In this document: in pieces, positions 19,312-26,301 of the stretch
Numbering within the stretch: the first letter of the stretch is position 1
How the letters are laid out: every line of letters begins with the position of its first letter
From: a virus
Virus record (IMG/VR): IMGVR_UViG_3300021131_000033
Coordinates: 1 to 32,880 of that record
Reading direction: 5' to 3' (one strand)
DNA: 32,880 nt
Made by a program: the position numbers and the translations under genes
The notes under the pieces: model-generated
Database searches by the model: none
What the model saw: only the letters and a program-made list of their open reading frames with translations
Told to the model about the DNA's origin: nothing

Positions 19312-19642
19312 AGGACAAAAGCAGTCTAAGAAACATGAGGCACGATTAGCAAAAAAGTTTGATGGCAAGCGCACAGCAGCCAGTGGAGCTTTTTGGAATC
19401 GTAAAGGCGATGTCCGAACTGATGAACTTTTAATAGAACATAAGTGGACGGGCAAAGCCTCCTTCACTGTCAAAGCGACAGTTTTGGAGAAGATTGTCAA
19501 TGAAGCAATTCTTGATAGCCGAATGCCTGTCCTTGGTATTAGTCTTAACAACGAGAATTACATATTGCTTTTAGAAGACGACTTCCTGGAACTTCGCCAG
19601 AATATTCAGGAGTGTACTTGTACGAAGGTTCAGGAAGTGTAG
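19301..19642 (+). CDS. Hjc-like PD-(D/E)xK nuclease (Holliday junction resolvase type)
   Basis: 113 residues, starting inside the last codons of recA (ATG at 19301; GGAG overlaps the end of recA). KKHEARLAKKFDGKRTAASG, then WNRKGDVRTDELLIEHKWT, gives the E...GD...ExK order of archaeal-type Hjc/phage RecB-like resolvases: the Asp of GD and the Glu/Lys of EHK are the catalytic set. The C-terminal half (MPVLGISLNNENYILLLEDD) completes the alpha/beta core. The protein would cut branched DNA made by RecA. A second, unrelated resolvase gene (RuvC-like) lies at 21296. Confidence 0.7.
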   Translation: MRSEGQKQSKKHEARLAKKFDGKRTAASGAFWNRKGDVRTDELLIEHKWTGKASFTVKATVLEKIVNEAILDSRMPVLGISLNNENYILLLEDDFLELRQNIQECTCTKVQEV

Positions 19643-19950
19643 AAGATTGGCGTTATACCGCCAAGTGTCGAGGTATGGACACAGAACTTTGGTACCCACC
19701 TAGAGATAAAGCAAAATACAAAAATATTGCCGATAAATCTAAAGCCGTGTGCTTTGGTAAAGATGGCGCCCCTGAGTGCCCAGTACGTTTGCAGTGCCTA
19801 TTGTATTCAGATAAGATGGACGAACAACACGGAATCTGGGGCGGACTCAGCCATCGTGAGCGCAACGCACTTAAGAGAAAAGCTGCTAAAGTAGGACTTA
19901 CATTGGAAGAATGGATTATTAAAAATGGTGGGAAAAGACGACAACCTTAA
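19618..19950 (+). CDS. WhiB-family iron-sulfur regulator
   Basis: 110 residues from the TTG at 19618, which has AGGAG at a 5-nt spacing; a GTG at 19612 is in frame but overlaps that site. Four cysteines (C17, C45, C54, C60) would bind the [4Fe-4S] cluster, and EQHGIWGGLSHRERN is the WhiB G-[VI]-W-G-G turn and basic DNA-binding tail. Cysteines two and three are separated by 8 residues rather than the usual 2. WhiB proteins are almost confined to actinobacteria and their phages, where phage versions can block host WhiB function or control late genes. This is the strongest host clue in the window. Confidence 0.85.
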   Translation: MYEGSGSVEDWRYTAKCRGMDTELWYPPRDKAKYKNIADKSKAVCFGKDGAPECPVRLQCLLYSDKMDEQHGIWGGLSHRERNALKRKAAKVGLTLEEWIIKNGGKRRQP

Positions 19951-25359: not shown

Positions 25360-25761
25360 ATGATGGATATTCCTATGAAAGAGTGCACTTCTTGTAGACA
25401 GTCGTTTCCTGAGACTAAATACAAGATGCGATGGTCTAAAGGACGTCAAGGCGGTACTCGTCAAGCTATGTGCAATAGGTGCTTGTATGTTAAATATACT
25501 CGCCCTAACGTAGAACGTAAAATGGCAAAAATTCATGCGTATCAGATAGAAAAAGGTTGCGCTGATTGCGGTTATAACAAACATGCTGCAGCACTTGAGT
25601 TTGACCATCTTCCAGGTACAGAAAAGTTTTTTAATATAGGCGAAGAAATTGGTAATAGAAGCGTAGAATCTATATGGTCAGAGATAGCTAAGTGCGAAGT
25701 TGTTTGCGCTAACTGTCACGCAATTAGAACTGTTGAACGTAGAGAGAGGGTTGACATATAA
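25360..25761 (+). CDS. HNH endonuclease-like protein with zinc ribbon
   Basis: 133 residues from the first of two adjacent ATGs. Residues about 9-42 hold C-x2-C (ECTSCRQSF) and C-x2-C (MCNRCLYV), a zinc ribbon. The HNH core follows: GCADCGYNKH, then ALEFDHLPG (with the His of H-N-H), then CEVVCANCHAIRTVERR. HNH phage proteins act as homing, packaging or host-cleaving nucleases; this short form, next to small unknown genes, fits a free-standing homing type but the role is open. The stop overlaps the next start (TAATG). Confidence 0.75.
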   Translation: MMDIPMKECTSCRQSFPETKYKMRWSKGRQGGTRQAMCNRCLYVKYTRPNVERKMAKIHAYQIEKGCADCGYNKHAAALEFDHLPGTEKFFNIGEEIGNRSVESIWSEIAKCEVVCANCHAIRTVERRERVDI

Positions 25762-26301
25762 TGCCAGGTCCTCATCAGAATGTTCAAAACCTTGGTGCCG
25801 CAGGTATGTATGGAACAAATACAAACTACGGCGGAGGCGGCGTTCCAGTCGCCAGGAGTGAACTTGACTTCTTACGTTTAGGCGTAGGTCGTCAGCCTTC
25901 TGCGGAGTATCCCTGACGGCTATTTAGGAACAATTAGAACTCGTAGAGATGACCGTGGTCGTCCAGGTTCTACATCAGAAAATGTTTTAGATTCACTTAA
26001 AGTTCGCATTACACAACGCGGTTATCAACGCGGTGTACATAAAGGCGAGCGCATTGACTCCGCTGGTTATTACTATCCAGATGAGTTGAGACCAGAGCGT
26101 GGAATTTTGCGCCAAATGAACTCAACTAGAGAAGGCAATGTTTTGATGTCAAAGAGAAACTCAGATGCACAACATCTGGCACCAGCTCCACACTTACCTA
26201 ATGATGGTAAGGCAGGTCCTGCTGCAAAGAGTGATGCACCTATGGGTGTTAACCTTAATCGTGCAAAGCGATTGAGTTCCCTATCACCAAATTGGAAATA
26301 A
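25761..26301 (+). CDS. Unknown protein expressed through a +1 ribosomal frameshift
   Basis: The first frame runs from the ATG at 25761 for 51 codons to TGA at 25914. The +1 frame is open across that point and continues from 25915 to TAA at 26299, so a shift gives one protein of about 179 residues: a Gly/Asn-rich N-terminus (NLGAAGMYGTNTNYGGGG), then ARSELDFLRLGVGRQPSAEYP joining DGYLGTIRTRRDDRGRPG, a middle YYYPDELRPERGILRQ, and a basic Ala/Pro-rich end. The join reads as natural sequence. No ORF with an obvious start lies in the second half: its first good ATG is at 26116 and would lack the conserved-looking segment. The family is not recognised; it opens the small-gene island. Confidence 0.7.
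25904..25917 (+). promoter_or_regulatory. RF2-like programmed +1 frameshift signal
   Basis: GGAG (25904-25907, Shine-Dalgarno-like), TAT, CCC, TGA, C. The bacterial prfB signal is G-rich Shine-Dalgarno, TAT, CTT, TGA, C at the same spacing. The P-site codon CCC can slip to CCT (25912-25914) in the +1 frame, the stop is the weak UGA-C context, and the upstream GGAG lies 3 nt from CCC as in prfB. Shift out of frame 0 joins the two halves of the gene described above. Confidence 0.7.

Follow-up and report, generated by a model that had tools for sequence, protein, structure and literature searches.

The 32,880-base virus record analysed here, hereafter the window, encodes a WhiB regulator and replication genes and also contains a gene that is split between two reading frames, with a stop codon at the joint and a motif around it resembling the frameshift signal of bacterial prfB. 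Hundreds of relatives encode the same protein in a single frame. The locus therefore raises the question of why a phage gene should carry an interruption that the ribosome has to correct.

A split gene with a prfB-like signal

A preliminary description of this locus had placed a 51-codon frame 0, ending at the TGA at 25914, ahead of a 128-codon +1 frame, and these coordinates were confirmed (Table 1). The one-base insertion that separates the two frames sits within an otherwise invariant AEYP/DGYLGT stretch, and a shift at this point would give a fusion with QPSAEYPDGYLGT across the frame junction. There is no start codon in the +1 frame from its upstream stop to the shift site, so reinitiation there is unlikely, and we rejected this route at the frame-0 stop. 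Searches of the product against Pfam, PHROG and PDB sequences gave no match, and its AlphaFold model was poor (mean pLDDT of 57).

Table 1 Features of the split gene and its surroundings in the window
Feature	Position	Strand	Remarks
WhiB-family regulator	19612-19950		Pfam PF02467, E = 4e-15
HNH endonuclease gene	25360..25761	+	133 aa; PHROG 2255 HNH endonuclease, E = 4e-29
Split gene, both frames	25761-26301	+	179-residue fusion expected if a +1 shift occurs
Start codon ATG of split gene	25761-25763
Frame-0 part	25761..25916	+	51 codons, TGA stop; matches residues 1-51 of single-frame relatives
Stretch common to the window and the shifted, HNH-less L224 and L220	approx. 25809..25913	+	Read as a co-conversion tract
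RF2-like signal GGAG-TAT-CCC-TGA-C	25904..25917	+	Sequence motif
Shine-Dalgarno (SD)-like GGAG	25904-25907
Slippery codon CCC	25911-25913
Extra base relative to single-frame relatives	25913..25914	+	GAGTATCC-TGACGG versus GAGTATCCCTGACGG (alignments)
Frame-0 stop TGA	25914-25916
C after the stop	25917
+1-frame part	25915..26301	+	128 codons (DGYLGT...); T25914 must be skipped to enter it
First codon of +1 frame (GAC)	25915
Stop of +1 frame	26299-26301

The likeness to prfB that had been proposed for the signal holds for the order and spacing of its elements, which comprise an SD-like sequence, a 3-nt spacer (even TAT), a pyrimidine slippery codon, UGA and then C, but not for duplex strength or for the slippery codon itself. 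Across 24 distinct shifted sites, the SD-like element is GGAG in 20 and GGAA in four and ends 3 nt before the slippery codon, which is CCC in 19 and CCT in five. UGA is followed by C at all 24 sites, compared to GAC in only 43 of 153 in-frame relatives. The predicted duplex with the anti-SD sequence before the slippery codon reaches -6.1 kcal/mol in most shifted sites, versus -10.7 kcal/mol for the prfB sequence, while the in-frame relatives have a median of -1.4. In an RF2 context, few codons slip as readily as CCC when a stop follows (PMC10885494). At six loci (L203, L204, L209, L217, L218 and L219) CCT-TGAC replaces CCC-TGAC; there the slip would run from CCU to CUU, with weaker pairing of tRNA-Pro. 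A downstream RNA stimulator was dropped as a candidate, since the 80 nt after the stop fold no better than shuffled sequences (z = 0.64) and an Rfam search for RNA structure at the site gave no convincing match.

Conservation of the insertion

The same one-base insertion is present in the window and in 26 other IMG/VR contigs; a pattern allowing any single extra base at the joint matched 27 contigs, of which 26 are true relatives. All shifted sites share the consensus GCGGA(G/A)TA(T/C)CC(C/T)TGACGG. The preliminary description had suggested checking relatives for the TGA and the SD-like element; TGAC and GCGGA(G/A) are retained in all 26 shifted relatives, with both halves open except at contig ends. 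Patterns with the extra base placed behind the Asp codon, or with one base removed at the Pro codon, matched nothing, and a wider insertion pattern without the downstream constraint added two matches, both of them unrelated and due to chance. For the in-frame pattern there were at least 120 matches. With the downstream protein as query, viral contigs yielded more than 500 related stretches; of the best 80, three carry the insertion, and in the other 77 the Pro and Asp codons share one frame (or differ by one substitution).

Both halves of the shifted genes are under purifying selection. In the downstream frame dN is far below dS, with dN/dS of roughly 0.03-0.25 among shifted pairs. Ala48 is encoded by GCG and Asp52 by GAC in each of 20 distinct shifted genes, among which the other conserved codons nearby all vary; in-frame relatives favor GCA (60%) at Ala48 and GAT (70%) at Asp52. 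Together, the low dN/dS and the invariant GCG and GAC codons indicate that the downstream frame is translated and that the motif appears to be selected.

Single-frame relatives had been expected, at the outset, to mark the insertion as an assembly error. Such relatives were found but do not make it one, because independent contigs, all of them metagenomic, share the same extra base. A prfB-like programmed +1 frameshift in the split gene, as first proposed from the motif, is strongly supported by this comparative evidence, given the shared insertion, the open and selectively constrained halves, the single-frame relatives and a signal kept in 27 contigs.

An HNH gene accompanies the shifted allele

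Directly upstream of the split gene lies an HNH endonuclease gene, whose stop overlaps the split-gene start codon. FDH, NCH and zinc-type cysteine pairs are conserved among its homologs, and intact homologs in the same slot amount to 15 distinct sequences. When only loci with at least 650 bp upstream were considered, an orthologous HNH gene was present at 16 of 22 distinct shifted loci versus one of 149 in-frame loci (Fisher p = 5e-15, without correction for relatedness and with two loci carrying another HNH type counted as in-frame HNH loci). Independent pairs on the tree point the same way, with seven agreeing and none disagreeing with the link (p about 0.016). Over the tree, the HNH gene is gained or lost at least 11 times and is therefore mobile; we infer that it is a free-standing homing endonuclease. 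The six shifted loci without an HNH gene are explained here as cases in which resistance would have been retained after HNH loss or transmitted alone.

Ahead of a normal single-frame gene, two loci (L004 and L047) have a different HNH type in the same slot (-609 to -177 from the joint), which makes the slot a possible hot spot for endonucleases with different targets. The contig of L227, which has a shifted, HNH-bearing locus, contains elsewhere (L303) a further HNH gene that is a distant relative (36% identity). We also searched for frameshift signals around the HNH relatives L247-L316 (identity roughly 32-64%); the motif was matched in a few places, none of them in a convincing split conserved gene.

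Scattered distribution and recombination patches

On a protein tree of 153 sequences, which does not separate gains from losses of the shift, the shifted state changes 14 times, at least 13 of them on well-supported branches. It changes 15 times when the tree is built from the downstream coding region but nine times when it is built from the 31 codons ahead of the site. The nearest neighbor of a shifted gene was also shifted in 16 of 20 cases for the 31-codon tract versus 11 of 20 for the downstream region.

Near-identical phages differ in a patch of roughly 90-120 bp ending at the insertion, and other near-identical phages differ in the HNH gene plus a diverged flank running through the site. 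For example, the 1.9 kb compared between L224, a shifted phage without HNH, and the in-frame L001 show 93-100% identity (mostly 97-100%) outside the patch, but identity falls to 80% and 71% in the two 60-bp bins from -120 to 0, where the extra base is also found, and is back at 100% in the 60 bp that directly follow the site; the L224 patch is up to 95% identical to the window. Similarly, most of both flanks match at about 90-98% between L214 (shifted, with HNH) and L189 (in-frame, without HNH), which differ by the inserted HNH gene and a diverged tract (about 72-77%) from -120 to +60, beyond which identity is again 85-100%. The only in-frame phage with an orthologous HNH gene, L008 (also listed as L237), has a window-like tract, 95-100% identical to the window. 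Its site, GCGGAGTATCCTGAAGGC, has no extra base but replaces Asp52 with Glu (GAA) in the near-invariant stretch, possibly a second type of resistant allele.

Co-conversion-like flanks were thus seen in the pairs L224/L001, L214/L189 and L008/L005, among a limited number of pairwise tracts inspected, some of which were too diverged for tract limits to be set. To judge from these alignments, the patch pattern is the footprint that homing and co-conversion around a cut would leave, with two ways of altering the target.

Probable host

The WhiB gene is consistent with an actinobacterial host. Among isolated phages, Streptomyces phages such as BRock and GiJojo have the closest counterparts of the window's DNA polymerase and split gene, and more distant homologs of the split gene occur in actinobacterial genomes; on these grounds the host is likely actinobacterial. 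A Terracoccus sp. genome (L232, 1980-9641) contains an in-frame version of the gene together with several of the window's neighboring genes in the same order, which suggests a provirus-like relative.

The prfB frameshift has been reported absent across 2,658 Actinomycetota genomes, and Mycobacterium smegmatis shows only about 6% shifting at a prfB motif (PMC12421855). In both actinobacterial genomes that we checked, prfB was in one open frame, and the classic prfB motif was found in one of 199 genomes of the phylum. This exact motif, AGGGGGTATCTTTGAC, lies in L323 (G005:C116:3442-3457), against the reported absence, and could come from a contaminating contig.

A proposed homing cassette with a recoded target site

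The explanation that we consider probable is a mobile HNH cassette accompanied by a cleavage-resistant allele of the neighboring gene, whose protein is restored by an RF2-like signal. Because the extra base travels with the HNH gene, it most likely guards the phage from cutting while leaving the protein unchanged. The HNH protein would recognize and cut the DNA coding for the near-invariant AEYPDGYLGT stretch in cassette-free phages, and repair templated by a cassette phage would copy in the HNH gene, its flank and the altered site. The extra base would shift the spacing inside the recognition sequence and so block cutting, an effect that synonymous changes may not achieve. During translation, the ribosome would pause at UGA-C with the upstream GGAG paired to 16S rRNA, tRNA-Pro would slip from CCC to CCU (or from CCU to CUU), and synthesis would proceed in the +1 frame at a rate that we presume to be useful. 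We also lean towards the broader reading that this is a DNA-level immunity allele that spreads by homing and has moved among many actinobacterial phages, with the inserted base blocking the endonuclease and the frameshift making it silent in the protein.

The main worry is that frameshifting in the likely host may be inefficient, given the reported absence of the prfB shift from Actinomycetota and the low value for M. smegmatis; the phage, for its part, may need little of the product.

Of the other explanations, an unlikely one is that the shift is a regulatory sensor, in which low RF2 or stressed termination raises the amount of full-length product and the HNH gene merely hitchhikes. All of the prfB elements are present in the same order, and UGA-C and GCGGA(G/A) are strictly conserved across 27 contigs. 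Nevertheless, most relatives encode this protein without a frameshift, the shifted state flips many times on the tree, the gene does not encode RF2, and the HNH tie and the patch footprint would be left unexplained. The earlier suggestion that sensing RF2 is the purpose of the site is therefore not upheld: single-frame relatives, at least 13 switches and the tracking of the HNH gene and recombination patches all speak against it.

We regard as quite improbable the idea that the shift serves to balance a 51-residue N-terminal protein against the 179-residue fusion, with both products of use. Structural genes of Listeria phages PSA, A118 and A500 do yield two products at CCC-UGA (PMC5009743), but here the stop falls inside the most conserved stretch instead of at a domain border, and the in-frame relatives make no short form, so the family does not need one.

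It is very unlikely that the HNH protein, instead of being a homing endonuclease, is a nuclease domesticated by the phage, and that the shifted site marks a hot spot of recombination without any protective effect. A packaging role is known for some phage HNH genes (PMC10448857), and the other HNH type in the slot of L004 and L047 accompanies an ordinary in-frame site. Against this, the sporadic presence of the gene, with at least 11 gains or losses, is atypical of a domesticated gene, and it is difficult to account for the one-base insertion unless the target was selected against.

An error of sequencing or assembly, or an allele in decay, would fit an extra base that lengthens a CC or CT run by one in metagenomic contigs, but is highly improbable. 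The identical insertion recurs in 26 other contigs, which come from many metagenomes and all have TGAC and GCGGA(G/A); near-identical genes assembled separately share it; it comes with linked synonymous differences over about 100 bp; dN is much below dS downstream; and neither of the two other indel positions tried yielded a case.

If the proposed homing cassette with a resistant, recoded allele is correct, the locus is a further case, after T4 gene 60, of translational recoding owed to a selfish endonuclease, and one spread over tens of phages, so that gains, losses and transfer become traceable. A coding sequence too conserved to change could then evade a nuclease by a ribosome-corrected indel, which would explain seemingly pointless programmed frameshifts in some phage genes. 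The comparison also assigns a prfB-like signal to Actinomycetota phages, whose hosts reportedly lack prfB frameshifting; the immunity allele would thus use a frameshift that the hosts do not use in their own prfB.

Comparison with known systems

Although its signal would work alike, the split gene falls outside prfB, from which it differs in slippery codon and encoded protein. The prfB slippery sequence is CUU_U (rarely UUU_U), whereas here it is CCC or CCU, and the GGAG of the split gene pairs more weakly than the prfB SD sequence. Whereas prfB encodes RF2 and is autoregulated, the split gene does not encode RF2 and has no Pfam or PHROG family, and the likely host phylum of the window is one reported to be without the prfB frameshift (PMC12421855).

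The tsh genes of Listeria phages PSA, A118 and A500 undergo a +1 frameshift at CCC-UGA (PMC5009743) and offer a phage precedent for slipping at a proline codon that UGA directly follows. There, however, the shift adds a second product from a structural gene, whereas in the split gene it would restore one protein, encoded in a single frame by relatives, and is tied to an endonuclease gene.

Phage endonucleases of the free-standing type cleave at sites hundreds of bp away from the gene that encodes them, and co-conversion accompanies the cut (PMC2988022). The Seg and Mob enzymes of T-even phages resemble the present case in the position of the endonuclease beside its target gene (here a predicted one), in flank co-conversion and in sporadic distribution (PMC2988022). 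The likeness to them is one of arrangement, as the HNH sequence family was not matched to the T4 Mob proteins, and the resistance proposed here would come from a frame-shifting base rather than from ordinary polymorphism. Among open-licence papers, represented mostly by titles and abstracts, we found no report of a single-base frameshift in a nuclease-protection role.

The closest precedent in logic appears to be T4 gene 60, in which a bypassed insert of 50 nt may have protected against the adjacent homing endonuclease (PMC5009743). Both cases combine an interrupted conserved phage gene, recoding at a stop and an adjacent homing endonuclease (here a putative one), and in both the insert and the endonuclease travel together; for the split gene it was conservation that we judged. 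The T4 gap is 50 nt long and is bypassed with the help of nascent-peptide and stem-loop signals, whereas the insertion in the split gene is a single base with the architecture of an SD-stimulated +1 slip, in an allele that belongs to actinophages and appears to have been transferred repeatedly among many of them.
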